Shown here: one piece after another, positions 25,692 to 62,552 of the stretch
How the letters are laid out: each line of letters begins with the position of its first letter
How positions within the stretch are numbered: the stretch's first letter is position 1
From: Phenylobacterium sp. SCN 70-31
GTDB lineage: Bacteria; Pseudomonadota; Alphaproteobacteria; Caulobacterales; Caulobacteraceae
Direction: 5' to 3'
Assembly (NCBI RefSeq): GCF_001724605.1
Contig: NZ_MEEX01000021.1
Coordinates: 18,501-82,500, forward strand
DNA: 64,000 bases
Position numbers and translations under genes: made by a program
Notes under the pieces: model-generated
The model's database searches: none
What the model was told of the DNA's origin: nothing
The model's input: the letters and a program-made list of their open reading frames with translations, nothing else

Positions 25692-25706
25692 GTTCTTGTT
25701 TTGTTC
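25692..25706 (+). promoter_or_regulatory. Putative LexA (SOS) box GTTC-N7-GTTC
   Basis: GTTCTTGTTTTGTTC, 25 bp upstream of the radical SAM ATG. Confidence 0.65.
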
Positions 25707-25730: not shown

Positions 25731-26807
25731 ATGTCTCAGACCGCTCCCCCGATGCGCGGCCGCGGCGCCCGCTCGAACGCCAGCGGCCGCTACGAGTCCG
25801 AGGTGCGGGAGGCGTTCGACGACGGCTGGACGCGCGACGACGCCGAGGCGACCCCCCTGCGCACCGAGGTCAGCGTCGAACGCGCCCGCCGGATCATCAG
25901 CCACAACGACAGCCCCGACGTCGGCTTCTCGGCCTCCATCAATCCCTACCGGGGCTGCGAGCACGGCTGCATCTACTGCTACGCCCGGCCTTCCCACGCC
26001 TATATGGGCCTCTCTCCCGGCCTCGACTTCGAGTCCCGCATCTTCGTGAAGCCAGACGCCGCCCGGCTCCTGGAGAGGGAACTCTCCAGGCCGAGCTACA
26101 AGCCCGAGCTGATCCACATCGGCGGCAACACCGACCCGTATCAGCCGCAGGAGCGAACCCAGCGGATCACCCGCGGGGTGATCGAGGTGATGCTGCGGTT
26201 CCGGCACCCCTTCTCCGTGATCACCAAGTCGGCGCTGGTCGTGCGCGACCTCGACCTGCTCGCCGAAGCGGCGACGATGAACCTGGCGCGGGTGGCCATC
26301 TCGGTCACCACTCTGGACCGCAAGCTGGCGCGCTCGATGGAGCCACGTGCGGCCACGCCGGCGAAGCGCCTGGACGCCATCGCCCGGCTTGCCGCGGCCG
26401 GCGTGCCCGTGACGGTCATGTTCGCACCGGCCATCCCGGGCCTGAACGACCACGAGATGGAGGCCGTGCTGGAGCGCGCCGCCGGCGCCGGCGCCTCGGG
26501 CGCGGGCTATGTCGTCCTGCGACTGCCGCTGGAGATCAAGGATCTGTTCCGGGAGTGGCTCGACACCGGCCAGCCGGATCGCGCCCGACGCGTCATGTCG
26601 CTGGTCCGCCAGATGCGGGGCGGCAAGGACTACGACATGGCCTGGGGTCGCAGGATGCGCGGCGAAGGCCCCATCGCCGACCTGCTTTCGATCCGCTTCA
26701 AGGCCGCCCGCCGCCGCTACGGTCTGGACCGCGGCTGGCCGCCCGCGGACCTCTCACGCTTCCGCGTCCCGCTTCAGGCCGGCGGGCAACTGGATCTGTT
26801 CGGCTGA
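25731..26807 (+). CDS. Radical SAM protein (PA0069/Rv2578c family, SplB-like)
   Basis: CxxxCxxC motif GCEHGCIYCYARPSH; HIGGNTDPYQPQE. Confidence 0.88.
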   Translation: MSQTAPPMRGRGARSNASGRYESEVREAFDDGWTRDDAEATPLRTEVSVERARRIISHNDSPDVGFSASINPYRGCEHGCIYCYARPSHAYMGLSPGLDFESRIFVKPDAARLLERELSRPSYKPELIHIGGNTDPYQPQERTQRITRGVIEVMLRFRHPFSVITKSALVVRDLDLLAEAATMNLARVAISVTTLDRKLARSMEPRAATPAKRLDAIARLAAAGVPVTVMFAPAIPGLNDHEMEAVLERAAGAGASGAGYVVLRLPLEIKDLFREWLDTGQPDRARRVMSLVRQMRGGKDYDMAWGRRMRGEGPIADLLSIRFKAARRRYGLDRGWPPADLSRFRVPLQAGGQLDLFG

Positions 26808-55499: not shown

Positions 55500-55723
55500 G
55501 TGATCAGCCGATTGGCGGGCGCCGTCCAGTCCCGAAGGCTTCAGCCACCGCCTGAAGCGCCTCGGACGGCAAGCTACGCCGCAGGCTTAAGAAAAGCTTG
55601 CCGCCCGGCCGTCGAAATTTACGCGCGCTTAACCACAACCTTCGACCCTCGGGATGTCTTCTTCGAAGACACCCCACCATCACCGACTTTTTCCGGCCCG
55701 ACGTCCGCGTCGGGCCGTTTTTT
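55500..55723 (+). ncRNA. Candidate small RNA ending in a strong intrinsic terminator
   Basis: Non-coding, three inverted repeats, T6-tailed hairpin; nothing upstream on + strand that needs termination. 5' end not determined. Confidence 0.35.
55694..55723 (+). terminator. Rho-independent terminator
   Basis: CGGCCCGACG-TCCG-CGTCGGGCCG-TTTTTT. Confidence 0.9.
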
Positions 55724-55845
55724 CACGAAGGTCGGTGCGGGCGGCCTCCGACGGCGCCGGGGGATCCAGAGGGATCTGCGACACCTTCCCGCAACCCTTG
55801 CACAAGCCGCCGGTGCGGCGTATACGCCCGCCCTCTCGGTGCTGA

Positions 55846-55921
55846 TCCCCGATAGCTCAGTTGGTAGAGCAGCCGGCTGTTAACCGGCTTGTCGCAGGTT
55901 CGAGTCCTGCTCGGGGAGCCA
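55846..55921 (+). tRNA. tRNA-Asn (GTT)
   Basis: TCCCCGA/TCGGGGA acceptor, loop CTGTTAA, TTCGAGT T-loop, CCA encoded. Confidence 0.96.
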
Positions 55922-56010
55922 CCGGAGACCAATTTTCCCCTTTTCCTTCCGTACGTTAGGCGGATTTGGCCCGCAAGCCGTCCGCCTTCACGTCCTAAAC
56001 GGAAGGCCAC

Positions 56011-56484
56011 ATGCCTCGCTATGCATCCGAAACGACCGTCTCGGTCGAGAAGTCCCGAATCGAAATTGAACGGACGCTCGCGCGCTACGGCGCTGACGCG
56101 TTCGCCTACTTCGCAGAAGCCAATCGGGCGATGGTCGCGTTCCGCATGGCGGATCGGCAGATCAAGTTCGTCCTGACGCTCCCTGAGCGGAACCTTCCCG
56201 AGTTCACGCATCACAGCCGAGGGCCGCGAACCGCCGAGGCGGCGTTGACCTCCTGGGAGCAGGCCTGCCGCCAACGCTGGCGAGCGCTCGCGCTAGTCAT
56301 CAAGGCGAAGCTCGAAGCAGTCGCCGCCGGAATCACGACCATCGAAGACGAGTTCCTGGCGCATACCCTCCTGCCCGACGGCTCGACCGTGGGCGAGTGG
56401 GCGAAGCCTCAGCTCAACGAGGCCTACCAGCTCGGCCACATGCCGACCACGCTCCTTCTGGCGGCTCCGGCAGGTGAAGCATGA
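56011..56484 (+). CDS. Phage-type hypothetical protein
   Basis: 157 aa, first ORF after tRNA-Asn, 4-bp overlap with next. Confidence 0.6.
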   Translation: MPRYASETTVSVEKSRIEIERTLARYGADAFAYFAEANRAMVAFRMADRQIKFVLTLPERNLPEFTHHSRGPRTAEAALTSWEQACRQRWRALALVIKAKLEAVAAGITTIEDEFLAHTLLPDGSTVGEWAKPQLNEAYQLGHMPTTLLLAAPAGEA

Positions 56485-57326
56485 CCACCCCCGAACCCTC
56501 CGTAGCGCCCGCTGAACCTGCTGTAGTGGGGAGGCTGACGAGAGAGCGTCCGATCCTCATGAGCGCCCCGATGGTGCGGGCGATCTTGGACGGGCGGAAG
56601 ACGCAGACGCGGCGGCTATTCAAGGTCTTTCCGGGCGACCGGAGCGGCATCACGTCCCCGCGCGAGGAAGTGCAGCGCTGGGAGGACGGATCATTCCATT
56701 ACCTGTCCACAGCAGGTTTGAGCGGCCCCTACACATGTCCATACGGCGACCCCGGCGACCGGTTGTGGGTGCGGGAGGCGTGGAAGACCTATTCCACGTT
56801 CGAAGCCGTGCCCCCGCGCAGTATCCCCGACACCGCGCGCATCTGGTACATGGCCGACACCGGATACCTCCCAAGCGGGAGCCGAGGACGCCCCGGCATC
56901 CACATGCCGAGGTGGGCGAGCCGGATCACGCTCCAGATCACCGGCGTCCGGGTCGAGCGGCTGAACGACATCAGCGAAGCGGATGCGATAGCCGAGGGGC
57001 TATACAAGTCCTACCCCACTGATGCCGACCGTGAGTGGTTTCGCGACTGGACCCACGAGCGTACGTTTGCAGAGCCAACCGCCGACGAGTGGGCCGATTT
57101 TGAATGCGGCGTCTGGAGGGTCCCCGGCGTGCCTCAAGGCTGGGGAATGTCCCCGGATGAACGGCGCCAGGACAGATGGGCGCCCACTCCGGAGTTCGCC
57201 TACAGGCTCCTTTGGGAGCACATCAACGGGGCGCAGTCGTGGTCCGAGAATCCGTGGGTGTGGGTCGTTGAGTTTGAGCGCGTTCCCTCCGGTCTCGCCG
57301 CCCTCCAATCAGGAGAGAAGGGATGA
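56481..57326 (+). CDS. ASCH/PUA-like phage protein
   Basis: RPILMSAPMVRAILDGRKTQTRRLF and YGDPGDRLWVREAW patterns. Confidence 0.75.
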   Translation: MTTPEPSVAPAEPAVVGRLTRERPILMSAPMVRAILDGRKTQTRRLFKVFPGDRSGITSPREEVQRWEDGSFHYLSTAGLSGPYTCPYGDPGDRLWVREAWKTYSTFEAVPPRSIPDTARIWYMADTGYLPSGSRGRPGIHMPRWASRITLQITGVRVERLNDISEADAIAEGLYKSYPTDADREWFRDWTHERTFAEPTADEWADFECGVWRVPGVPQGWGMSPDERRQDRWAPTPEFAYRLLWEHINGAQSWSENPWVWVVEFERVPSGLAALQSGEKG

Positions 57327-57631
57327 GCGGAACCGCCCCTCGCCCTGAGGCGCAATTCGAGCCGGCCAAACACCCCGCGCCGCCGGACAAGGACGCGCCC
57401 GTTCGCGCGCTCTGTGAGGCCGCCGGGCCGTTGTGGACGAGAGGCGGAAAGCACTTCGAACGAGCGCGGCGGATCGTGGCTGGAAAGCTCGGATGGCGCT
57501 CGGCGGATGTCCTGGATTGGGAGGTTCGATCATACCTGCGGATGGATCGGCCGGCCTGGGCGGATCGCGCCGGCCTTCCGCTAGCCGAAGCGGATTTGTC
57601 CCCTCTCTCGACCAAGGCCACCACCCCATGA
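57323..57631 (+). CDS. Phage hypothetical protein
   Basis: 102 aa, 4-bp overlaps on both sides. Confidence 0.55.
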   Translation: MSGTAPRPEAQFEPAKHPAPPDKDAPVRALCEAAGPLWTRGGKHFERARRIVAGKLGWRSADVLDWEVRSYLRMDRPAWADRAGLPLAEADLSPLSTKATTP

Positions 57632-57816
57632 CCCCCGAAGAGATAGAAGCGGTGATGTCAGCCATCGCCGATCTTGTGCCTCTGGAGGACGGCAGCCTGT
57701 GGTCGCCCCTTCACTCGCCCTCGTGGCCCGGCGACTACTCAACGTCTGAACGGCGGTTGCGTCGGTCTATCGCCCGCGCCGCCATCGAGGCTCTAGATCG
57801 GGTGCGGGGGAAGTGA
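57628..57816 (+). CDS. Small phage hypothetical protein
   Basis: MTPEEIEAVMSAIADLVPLEDGSLW; overlapping operon. Confidence 0.5.
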   Translation: MTPEEIEAVMSAIADLVPLEDGSLWSPLHSPSWPGDYSTSERRLRRSIARAAIEALDRVRGK

Positions 57817-58187
57817 TGAAGCCTCAGCGCATTCAGTTGAGCCGGGCCAAGGGCTGGCGGATGCCGCCCAACACCGCGAAGGTGGATCGCTCGACGCGGT
57901 GGGGGAACCCGTTCGGGCGGGAGAACGCCATCGCCAGCGGCTACGCCACCGAGACCAACTGGCGCGCCTTCGTGGTCGAGTGCTTCCGGGATTGGATCGG
58001 ACCGACCCAGAGAGGCCGGGACTGGTGGCAGGGACCCGAGAGCGACCGCCGCCGACGTTGGTTCGTGGAAGAGATCGACCAGCTTCGCGGCAAGAACCTC
58101 GCCTGCTGGTGTCCCCTCGGCTCGCCCTGCCACGCCGACGTACTGCTGGAGCTGGCCAACGCCCCTTCTGAAGAGGGAGAGGGGTAG
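57813..58187 (+). CDS. DUF4326-domain protein
   Basis: RIQLSRAKGWRMPPNTAKVDRSTRWGNPF; NLACWCPLGSPCHADVLLELAN. Confidence 0.85.
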   Translation: MMKPQRIQLSRAKGWRMPPNTAKVDRSTRWGNPFGRENAIASGYATETNWRAFVVECFRDWIGPTQRGRDWWQGPESDRRRRWFVEEIDQLRGKNLACWCPLGSPCHADVLLELANAPSEEGEG

Positions 58188-58459
58188 ATGCTGCGGGCCG
58201 GACTGGATACCGGCTGACCGGGATTACATGGCGCGTAGCACCCGGCCGCTCTCTCACCGCTGTGCATCTATCTGCACCGCCGCAGCGCCGGGAACCTAGC
58301 ACTGTTCGGCCAAGAGGGTAGATGCTGCGGAGGCCGGACCCCGAATGTCCCGGCGAACTATCCACTGGGGCGACGGCCTGGGGATTTACCGCGTCGCTCC
58401 GCAGCCCCTCCAGAATCCCACGTTACGCCGGCCGCCGCAACGCTTGACTCCGACTTTAT

Positions 58460-58474
58460 GTTCACTCTTTGTTC
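58460..58474 (+). promoter_or_regulatory. Putative LexA (SOS) box GTTC-N7-GTTC
   Basis: GTTCACTCTTTGTTC; 32 bp upstream of ATG 58507, downstream of TTGACT (58444-58449). Confidence 0.65.
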
Positions 58475-58506
58475 GATCTCCGACGAGATCAGACAAGGAG
58501 CATCCG

Positions 58507-59001
58507 ATGGTCCACCGAACATACGCCGGCCTTGGGTCGCCCGACCTCGCCATCCCGGCCTTCAACAAGCTGACGCCCTGGGCCAAACGGCTCTTGGAAC
58601 TCCAGGGTCAGTTCGACCGCTTCACCGCCGGTTGGCTCGCGTTCGGCATCGCAATCGAAGCGCTGGAGACCACGGCTTACCACTTCACGCGGCGTCCCCG
58701 CTTCTACGAGCGATTGAGCGAAGAGATGACGCCTGCGCCTGGCACCAGCCTGCTCGGCCAGCCCGCGGAGGTCATCAAGACCTTCATCGGCCTCACGCCC
58801 TACCATGACGCGCTGATCTCGATGCTCCAGCAATGCCGACCGATGGGGCGGGACTACATGGCTATCCTGATCGCGAAGGACGGCCTCGACTCCGCCGCCT
58901 ACCACTTCACTCGCGAGGATCGGTTCTTCGCGCCTCGGTCGGACAGCACCGGCCCCATTCGTGGACCGGCCGGCCATGTGCTTGCGGCGTCATCGGCATG
59001 A
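58507..59001 (+). CDS. Hypothetical protein with internally duplicated AYHFTR motif
   Basis: 164 aa; start chosen by position behind the LexA-like box; two copies of ...AYHFTRxxRF. Confidence 0.65.
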   Translation: MVHRTYAGLGSPDLAIPAFNKLTPWAKRLLELQGQFDRFTAGWLAFGIAIEALETTAYHFTRRPRFYERLSEEMTPAPGTSLLGQPAEVIKTFIGLTPYHDALISMLQQCRPMGRDYMAILIAKDGLDSAAYHFTREDRFFAPRSDSTGPIRGPAGHVLAASSA

Positions 59002-59177
59002 CCGCCAACCTCCCAGCCGATCCCTACGCCCGCTGGGCGATGGACGATCTCATGGCGGTCTGGGACCTCGCCCACCGCGACGGCGGGGCGGTCGATCCCG
59101 CCCTCGCCCGCCGGGTGGCTGGCCTCTGCGCCGAGAGCGACGCGCTGCTGGACCGCGCCGAGGGCGAGAAGGCGTGA
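58998..59177 (+). CDS. Small phage hypothetical protein
   Basis: MTANLPADPYARWAMDDLMAVWDL; ATGA overlap with upstream gene. Confidence 0.5.
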   Translation: MTANLPADPYARWAMDDLMAVWDLAHRDGGAVDPALARRVAGLCAESDALLDRAEGEKA

Positions 59178-59183
59178 GCGCCG

Positions 59184-59381
59184 ATGAAGTTCGAGACCCT
59201 CGGCAACATGCTCGGGCCCTCCGAGACGCTGAAGGTCAAGTGCCGGGCCTGCGGGCGCGTGACGGCGTTCCCGGTCAAACTCGCGATCCGCGCGTTCGGC
59301 CCCGACGCGACACCCTACGACGTCCGCCGCAAGGCCCGCTGCACCGCCTGCCGCGCCCGCCATCCCGACGTCTGGATGTGA
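59184..59381 (+). CDS. Small zinc-ribbon-like protein
   Basis: KCRACGRVTAF...RCTACRARHP (two CxxC). Confidence 0.6.
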   Translation: MKFETLGNMLGPSETLKVKCRACGRVTAFPVKLAIRAFGPDATPYDVRRKARCTACRARHPDVWM

Positions 59382-59423
59382 ACCCAACTTGCCGGGCAGC
59401 CGCAGCGGCGCGAGGGTGAACCC

Positions 59424-60089
59424 ATGTGCAATCTCTACACCCTCGCGCCCGGCCTCGACGCCCTGGCGGCCGACTTCGAGAAGCTCGGGATCAAGCTGCG
59501 GCTCACCAGCCCGCAGGCCTTCGACAACCAGCCATTGAAGCCGTACGTCGCGCCCAAGGGCCTCGGGATCTTCGCCCGGCCCATCGACCCCGCCGCCCCG
59601 GCCGAGGGCCTGGAGCCCGTCGTCGGGACGTGGGGCGTCATCCCCTTCTTCCACAAGGGTCCCGCCAAGGCGTGGAAGTCGGCCACGAACAACGCCCGCT
59701 CCGAAGACATGCTGACCAAGCCGACCTGGCGCGGGATCGTGAAGACGAACCGCTGCATCATCCCGGCCGATGCGTTCACCGAGTGGACCGGGCCTAAAGG
59801 CGCGAAGACCAAGCACGCGATCACCCGTGCCGACGGCCAACGTCTGTTCTTCGCCGGGCTCTGGGCCGACCACACCTGGGAGGGCGAGCGAACCGAGAGC
59901 TACACGATGGTGATGCAGGCCGCAGGCGGTGACGACGACATGGCCCCGTTCCACGATCGACAGCCCGTCGTGCTCGACCGGGACAGCGCCCGCCTCTGGC
60001 TCGACCTGTCCGCCGATCCGCTGGCCGCGATCCGGCCTCCCCTGCCCGGTACGTTGGCGTTCGACCCGCCGGAGCCGGCGGCGGCTTAG
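59424..60089 (+). CDS. SOS response-associated peptidase (SRAP/YedK/HMCES family)
   Basis: MCNLYT N-terminal catalytic Cys, NNARSE, RCIIPADAFTEW, TTxxxxH-like region. Confidence 0.93.
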   Translation: MCNLYTLAPGLDALAADFEKLGIKLRLTSPQAFDNQPLKPYVAPKGLGIFARPIDPAAPAEGLEPVVGTWGVIPFFHKGPAKAWKSATNNARSEDMLTKPTWRGIVKTNRCIIPADAFTEWTGPKGAKTKHAITRADGQRLFFAGLWADHTWEGERTESYTMVMQAAGGDDDMAPFHDRQPVVLDRDSARLWLDLSADPLAAIRPPLPGTLAFDPPEPAAA

Positions 60090-60262
60090 ATCGTCCGTCG
60101 CTCAGGAGGGACCCGCGCTCGAAGCTCCCGCTCTCGCTCCTCGGCCATCAACTCCCACTCGATGGCCATCTTCTCAAGCTGGTCGCGGTGCGCGGCGGGC
60201 ATCTGCTCGGCCAGGTCGCGGCAGGCCTGGGCGTGCTCGCGGAACGTCATGACGCGCTTCAT
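60086..60262 (-). CDS. Small hypothetical protein, antisense to the phage operon
   Basis: MKRVMTFREHAQACRDLAEQMPAAHRDQLEKMAIEWELMAEERERELRARVPPERRTI. Confidence 0.5.
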   Translation of the reverse strand: MKRVMTFREHAQACRDLAEQMPAAHRDQLEKMAIEWELMAEERERELRARVPPERRTI

Positions 60263-60337
60263 GCAGTCATCACGGGTGAAGGTGGGCCTGTGGTCAAGAC
60301 TCCGGAGCCCACGCCGCGCCGCGCGCGTTCACCCGCC

Positions 60338-60541
60338 ATGCGCCAGCCGAACCGCGTCACAGTCTACATCGCCGACCAGGCCTGGAATGGCCATTGGGAA
60401 CTGGACGGCCGCGACCTGCGCCTGTTCAGCGCCTATGGTTCGGCCCGCACGCCGCTCGGGCGGCGGAAACCCGAGACGGTCGCCAAGGCCGAGATGACCT
60501 CAATCGTGCAGGCCTGGCGTCAGGGGAGACCGAGGCCATGA
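60338..60541 (+). CDS. Small phage hypothetical protein
   Basis: MRQPNRVTVYIADQAWNGHWELDGRDLRLFSAYGSARTPLG. Confidence 0.5.
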   Translation: MRQPNRVTVYIADQAWNGHWELDGRDLRLFSAYGSARTPLGRRKPETVAKAEMTSIVQAWRQGRPRP

Positions 60542-60648
60542 CGCTGCTCTGGGCGTGGTTCGCAGGACTGGTGACGGGCGGCGCCGGCGTCGCCGCGCTG
60601 GCGGTGTTGTGGGTTCAGGCGCGGGAGCGGGCGAGTCCCGACGAGTAG
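60538..60648 (+). CDS. 36-aa single-TM phage protein
   Basis: MTLLWAWFAGLVTGGAGVAALAVLWVQARERASPDE; ATGA overlap. Confidence 0.45.
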   Translation: MTLLWAWFAGLVTGGAGVAALAVLWVQARERASPDE

Positions 60649-60895
60649 GACAGTCAGTCATCCGATCTCATCGGACAACTGGACCCGAGCCGCCCTCATG
60701 ATACCGGCGGCGCGAGCGTGCGCCGCCGGGTTTCGGTGGCGAGCGACGTGATACTCGGCGCCCTGGACCTCGCTCAAACCGAGGGCCAGACTGCTTCGGC
60801 CGCCAGCACTTCCCCCCGGTTGTACGGCGGCCGTCAGTGCTCCGGCCGGGGGTCGGCCGGGCGCTGACGAAAGGATAATGGTCGATAATGGTCGA

Positions 60896-61174
60896 TCATC
60901 GACACCCCGTGCTCGCCGCCTCCAGTCCTGCGATATAGCCGTCTCTCTGCTCCCGTCCTGCCAGGAGTAGGCGGACCCGCTCTGCGATGTCAGGGGCGCC
61001 CTTGAGGGCTGACGGGCTGTCGGCGTAGGTCGGTCGCGGCGGGGCTTCGGCGGCGCACGGGACGGGGATAGGGACCTTTACCTCAACGGTGCGGATCGTG
61101 GGCTCGGGCGTCGTGGCGCAGGCGGTGAGGGTCGCCGAAACGACCCCCACCAGGACGATGCGGTCAGGCCGCAT
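60896..61174 (-). CDS. Rz1-like outer-membrane spanin lipoprotein
   Basis: Lipobox LTAC, Pro-rich PIPVPCAAEAPPRPTY; last gene of lysis block. Confidence 0.65.
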   Translation of the reverse strand: MRPDRIVLVGVVSATLTACATTPEPTIRTVEVKVPIPVPCAAEAPPRPTYADSPSALKGAPDIAERVRLLLAGREQRDGYIAGLEAASTGCR

Positions 61175-61636: not shown

Positions 61637-62032
61637 TCATTCCCCGTACTGATCGATCAGCCGCGCGGCCTCGGCGCACTTGTCCGGCCCGATCCGCTCG
61701 GACAGGATGCGATCCACGTTCCGCCGATGGCTCTCTGCGACAGCGCGGGCCGCCTGAGCCGCCTTTCGGCTTTCGGCCACTCTGGCGTCGGCTTCCCGCT
61801 TGAGCCCGTCCACGGCCCGGTTGTGGGCGGCTATCGACGCCTCCAGGCCGGCCCGGTTCCGCTGGCAGGCTTTCGTCTCGTCGCGGGCGGCGTCGCGGGC
61901 CTTAGCGGCAGACGCCACCTCCCCCTTCAGCCGATCGATCCTCGCCCCCGGCCCTACGAACGGGGTGACGTGGTACAGGCCCACGGCAAGGGCCGCGGTC
62001 AGGGCGTAGGGGGCAAGGCGGAGGGCGATCAC
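61637..62032 (-). CDS. Rz-like inner-membrane spanin (GTG start)
   Basis: N-terminal TM then long coiled coil, GPDKCAEAARLIDQYGE; GTGA overlap with lysozyme. Confidence 0.75.
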   Translation of the reverse strand: MIALRLAPYALTAALAVGLYHVTPFVGPGARIDRLKGEVASAAKARDAARDETKACQRNRAGLEASIAAHNRAVDGLKREADARVAESRKAAQAARAVAESHRRNVDRILSERIGPDKCAEAARLIDQYGE

Positions 62033-62502
62033 GCGAGGCCCTCCATGCAGAGTTTGCGTTCGGCCGCACGCCGGTTGACCAGGCCGCGCATCTTCTGGCC
62101 GCCCGCGTACACCCACTTCGACAACTCGGCGCACGCGCCCGGCAGGTCCCCAGACCTCGCCTTCCGCGACAGGGTGGACGCGCAGAACTTCGTCGCCCCG
62201 ACGTTGAACCCGAACGAGACGAAGGCCGCGTGCGTCTCCAGCGGTAGGGTCTCCGGGAGGCAGGGGGCGATATCGAGCCCGTGCTTCACCACGTCGTCGG
62301 CGAGCATGCCGACGCACTCCTGCTCCGTGTATCGCTTGCCCAGCACTACGCCCCTGGTCGAGCCATAGCAGGCGGTCGGTAGGTTCACGCCAAGGGCGGG
62401 GTCGGGATAACCGACCGGGACATAGCCCTCGAATGCCGCGATGGTACCGACGGCGACGGATGATGCCGCCAGGACCCCAGCTAGAACCCTGACCCTACTC
62501 AT
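62029..62502 (-). CDS. Phage lysozyme (GH24, SAR-type N-terminus)
   Basis: FEGYVPVGYPDPALGVNLPTACYGSTRGV; hydrophobic weakly charged N-terminus. Confidence 0.85.
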   Translation of the reverse strand: MSRVRVLAGVLAASSVAVGTIAAFEGYVPVGYPDPALGVNLPTACYGSTRGVVLGKRYTEQECVGMLADDVVKHGLDIAPCLPETLPLETHAAFVSFGFNVGATKFCASTLSRKARSGDLPGACAELSKWVYAGGQKMRGLVNRRAAERKLCMEGLA

Positions 62503-62552
62503 GTTGGCGTTCCGTTCTGGTTTTCGGGACCGCTTCGCGATACGCTCCGCCC

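Follow-up and report, generated by a model that had tools for sequence, protein, structure and literature searches.

The analysed window, a 64,000-nucleotide stretch of a Phenylobacterium sp. SCN 70-31 contig (NZ_MEEX01000021.1, positions 18,501 to 82,500), contains a tRNA-Asn gene at 55846-55921 (+), followed on its right by a prophage-like region with PHROG-family genes, an endolysin gene (62032-62505, minus strand) and an HNH nuclease gene. The contig ends with the window, and the far end of the element was therefore not seen. Within this region, an exact GTTC-N7-GTTC motif, GTTCACTCTTTGTTC, is present at 58460-58474 (+), 32 bp before an ATG that heads four tightly packed genes convergent with the endolysin gene. 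A DUF4326 gene (phrog_464, 57816-58187) lies just upstream of the motif. A TTGACT sequence at 58444-58449 (+), 10 bp before the motif, is a possible -35 element, and TTGACT was found 5-19 bp before the motif in several relatives; however, a generic promoter scan found no sigma-70 site in 55600-61000, and the promoter remains putative.

The first gene (gene 1; 58507-59001, +) encodes 164 amino acids and is preceded by a clear ribosome-binding site, with AAGGAG ending six bases before the ATG. Gene 2 (58998-59177, +) overlaps it at ATGA and encodes 59 amino acids. Its composition is coding-like, but the loci searched with it gave no relative outside the window's own locus. Gene 3 (59184-59381, +) encodes a 65-residue zinc ribbon with cysteines at positions 20, 23, 53 and 56 (CxxC-x29-CxxC), and matches Zn_ribbon_4 below the cut-off. 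The fourth gene (59424-60089, +) encodes a 221-residue SRAP (HMCES/YedK-type) protein with a Pfam SRAP (PF02586) score of 118.3 bits against a cut-off of 27.1. Cys2, Asn90, Arg92, Glu120 and His177 are present, matching residues shown to matter in YedK, including Cys2, Glu105 and His160 (PMC9436759). Arg77 also has a role in YedK. The protein starts MCN, whereas E. coli YedK starts MCG, and its sequence match to solved members of the family is only 47-50 bits. The first-pass annotation, which had described a perfect GTTC-N7-GTTC ahead of four packed genes ending in an SRAP gene, was thus correct in what it observed.

GTTC-N7-GTTC is the LexA operator of C. crescentus (PMC9578287, PMC12700426). 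By motif counting alone, the site is not beyond chance in the window, as two exact sites were present and 40 of 100 shuffles (mean 1.48) reached two. The second site, at 25692-25706, is also in a promoter position, 24 bp before a PA0069-family radical SAM gene (25731-26807), and the site at 58460 is the only exact one in the window to the right of 55800. In the window's own genome (4.89 Mb) the motif is enriched, with 170 sites against 46 for the reversed pattern. Seven of the listed sites (C3, C6, C9 and C13) share GTTCGTTCGCGGTTC, several in inverted pairs, and are probably copies of a repeat element, so that the figure of 170 is slightly inflated. At this density, the chance of a site within 60 bp upstream of a given start is near 0.2%. 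The host circuit is present in the same genome, with a box 39 bp before lexA and another 19 bp before an imuA-like ORF of a cluster with imuB and dnaE2 (ImuA and ImuB were identified by eye).

To address whether the box is conserved in homologous loci, a condition on which the first-pass annotation had staked its reading, relatives of gene 1 were collected. A first search with the gene 1 protein found relatives in 19 of 249 genomes of the family, at 20 places, including a paralogue in the own genome, and all 20 had an exact box, in either orientation, within 350 bp upstream. A profile search then found relatives in 44 of 390 genomes, the named hits being Phenylobacterium, Caulobacter and other Caulobacteraceae. 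Among 44 distinct proteins, 40 had an exact box within 400 bp upstream and none had the reversed motif, while the corresponding figures for other genes of at least 100 amino acids in the same loci were 37 and 2 of 256, a control that includes neighbours sharing the same box. The four exceptions were locus L238, which has a one-mismatch box, L247, L248, where the box lies 636 bp upstream before the first gene of its operon, and L070, for which the analysis covered only 234 bp. Loci L240, L250 and L251 had no callable gene-1 ORF and are not in these counts or in the neighbourhood counts below, and L253 and L255 are likewise left out.

More distant relatives, selected by protein alone, mostly showed the box as well. 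A weak profile hit in a phage contig (L164, E 1.8e-5) had a box 16 bp before its start. Its relatives were found on 10 of 72,556 plasmid records, from the Rhodobacterales Phaeobacter and Ruegeria; in the three examined, the box lies 23-30 bp upstream and an annotated SOS response-associated peptidase follows directly downstream. The hhalign comparison joined this branch to the Caulobacteraceae branch at 97.4% (E 1.2e-11 over 68 columns). A second phage relative, L290, has no box. Methylobacterium plasmids gave three more relatives, with an exact box 31-32 bp upstream in 3 of 3 and an annotated SRAP within 2.5 kb in 0 of 3. A broad search of the class found 9 of 385 genomes, including the own genome; of the other eight loci, six have the box upstream of the gene or of its operon, and two (L300, a fragment, and L302, the weakest hit) do not. 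Class searches of the same size with narrower profiles gave 4 of 385 and 1 of 385. Single-protein scans of named genome and viral contigs with gene 1 found nothing, and profile searches were needed there; gene 1 had no match among the phage and plasmid records. A profile of the double unit, as well as an SRAP scan, found nothing in viral contigs.

The gene neighbourhoods were examined in 42 loci with a callable gene 1, using a custom gene caller retrained to exclude misleading antisense frames. Zinc ribbons of the types seen here were present in 15 loci, an SRAP within -1.5 to +5 kb in eight (four on the same strand), a DnaE2 in three and an MmcB-like gene in two. However, 31 of the 42 had no SRAP, DnaE2 or MmcB-like gene nearby, and 25 had none of these nor a zinc ribbon, so the partner link is not universal. 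In the three DnaE2 loci (L214, L216 and L218), dnaE2 lies directly behind gene 1 (overlap of -3 bp), with no other gene called between box and dnaE2, and is followed by two zinc-ribbon genes. DnaE2 was confirmed in one locus (1408 bits to NF004225). Each of these three genomes has a second DnaE2 over the cut-off elsewhere, while the seven others tested have one. A DUF736-like gene, confirmed by Pfam in one locus, lies before the box and suggests an integrative conjugative element. The MmcB-like genes, confirmed by Pfam in one locus, follow a gene-1 relative behind a box in two genomes of the Caulobacter genus, at spacings of 1 and 10 bp. In one genome (G113), the window order, box-gene1-zinc-zinc-SRAP, is repeated between host metabolic genes. 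The paralogue in the own genome (L212, 4158-5307, C4) lies behind a box with a 53-residue leader ORF, next to a relaxase-like gene with DUF3363 and an SRAP on the other strand, and looks like part of a mobile element.

The association was also examined from the SRAP side. SRAP relatives were present in 87 of 101 genomes of the genus. Of the nine closest fetched loci other than the window (L173-L181), seven have an exact box within 1.5 kb upstream and eight a zinc ribbon; of the next 20 (L182-L201), none has either upstream, although two have a box downstream. In wider stretches, one of the two others has a box about 2 kb upstream and one a single-mismatch box. The first gene between box and zinc ribbon differs from operon to operon (L202-L210), as if this were an exchangeable slot.

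Gene 1 had no match in Pfam, NCBIfam, PHROGs or PADLOC and defines an unnamed SOS-associated family; one distant member had only sub-cut-off coiled-coil-like Pfam matches. The family is built on a unit of about 65 residues, present once in small members and as two tandem copies in the window protein. The single unit is predicted as three helices (pLDDT 86.5), and the window protein as a plain helical bundle with lower confidence (pLDDT 73.1). Fold comparisons with the PDB and with viral models gave no informative match. A recurring weak likeness to Dps/ferritin-like four-helix proteins reached only Z 6-7.7, within the noise for helical bundles, and residues about 14-54 of the unit showed a non-significant likeness to the fingers of a B-family DNA polymerase (5mdn_A; profile E 0.43, Foldseek E 1.7); both likenesses stand only as leads. 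The gene-1 profile did not match ImuB.

Taken together, we consider with reasonable confidence that this is a LexA-repressed, DNA-damage-inducible operon carried as cargo by a prophage. In this view, RecA on single-stranded DNA would trigger LexA cleavage, the box at 58460 would be freed, and gene 1, gene 2, the zinc ribbon and SRAP would be made together; SRAP would then form its covalent link to abasic sites in single-stranded DNA at stalled forks. The zinc ribbon and gene 1 would most likely be accessory proteins of the same job, handling lesions on single-stranded DNA and governing which repair or bypass enzyme acts there. Gene 1 would in this way behave as a shared accessory part of SOS damage tolerance, being paired in different replicons with SRAP, DnaE2 or MmcB-like nuclease. 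The analysis itself establishes the sequence, the gene order, the conserved box and the presence of the catalytic residues, whereas LexA binding, damage induction, SRAP cross-linking and the functions of genes 1-3 are inferred. The interpretation in the first-pass annotation, that host LexA controls the operon and that its three unnamed proteins may act in DNA damage processing with SRAP, is therefore partly supported: LexA control is well supported by sequence, far beyond this prophage, and a shared role in damage processing is supported by gene neighbourhood for gene 1 and the zinc-ribbon gene, but not for gene 2.

A broader reading is possible but tentative, and we regard it as less likely than not. 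Gene 1 may found a previously unnamed SOS family of Alphaproteobacteria, spread by phages, plasmids and ICE-like elements, that acts as a general adaptor at damaged single-stranded DNA, partnering SRAP at abasic sites, standing in the place of ImuA/ImuB beside a mobile DnaE2, and partnering MmcB-like nuclease, so that mobile elements would carry their own LexA-timed lesion-tolerance kit.

Two alternatives appear unlikely, although neither is excluded. Gene 1 could be an SOS-induced checkpoint or growth regulator, such as a division inhibitor or a modulator of the SOS response itself, sharing operons with repair genes only because they share a LexA promoter. It is a small helical protein, most members stand behind the box without SRAP, DnaE2 or MmcB-like gene, and SOS regulons commonly hold division inhibitors (PMC9578287). 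Against this, the tight coupling with SRAP in Ruegeria and Phaeobacter, the overlap with DnaE2 and the close spacing with MmcB-like genes recur in unrelated replicons. Similarly, the operon could serve the phage, being timed by host LexA at prophage induction to protect phage DNA or blunt host functions, with SRAP as a tool of the phage. Consistent with this, it lies in a prophage-like region convergent with an endolysin gene, another family member in a Caulobacter genome (L242) is also convergent with an endolysin gene, and a phage contig (L091) carries a member behind a box. However, the G113 copy lies between ordinary metabolic genes, and the operon is not a fixed part of related phages: in 80 phage loci related through the neighbouring gene at 56481-57326, the box was at background (37 against 29 reversed) and no SRAP was found. 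A chance match without LexA control is very unlikely, despite the window count and the negative sigma-70 scan, given the conservation before homologues in several alphaproteobacterial orders with differing spacers and the absence of the reversed motif in all 44.

SRAP in SOS operons is already known. SRAP genes have been described beside mutagenic polymerases and zinc-ribbon genes, and with two zinc-chelating domains (Aravind et al. 2013, PMC3765255), without mention of the gene-1 family in the text consulted, and SRAP genes are induced together with SOS genes in another alphaproteobacterium, Sphingopyxis (PMC6472365). Here, prophage, plasmid and ICE-like copies in Alphaproteobacteria have gene 1 as the leader gene. 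The imuA-imuB-dnaE2 mutasome is likewise a LexA-boxed operon with DnaE2, but in the three genomes described above a second DnaE2 lies directly behind gene 1. mmcB is an SOS gene of C. crescentus thought to work with translesion polymerases (PMC9578287); the window operon has SRAP, not MmcB. The new part is the gene-1 family, an unusual and apparently undescribed leader gene family. A literature search returned no paper that we recognised as describing it, but this is weak evidence of novelty, as subscription papers were mostly not covered.

SOS regulons hold many unnamed small proteins. A family that sits behind a LexA box almost wherever it occurs, and that in part of its loci pairs with SRAP, DnaE2 or MmcB, is a concrete candidate for a missing accessory factor of bacterial lesion tolerance, although the functional reading of gene 1 rests on the company it keeps. 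The finding also points to mobile elements carrying DNA-damage functions whose timing, as inferred from sequence, is set by the host.
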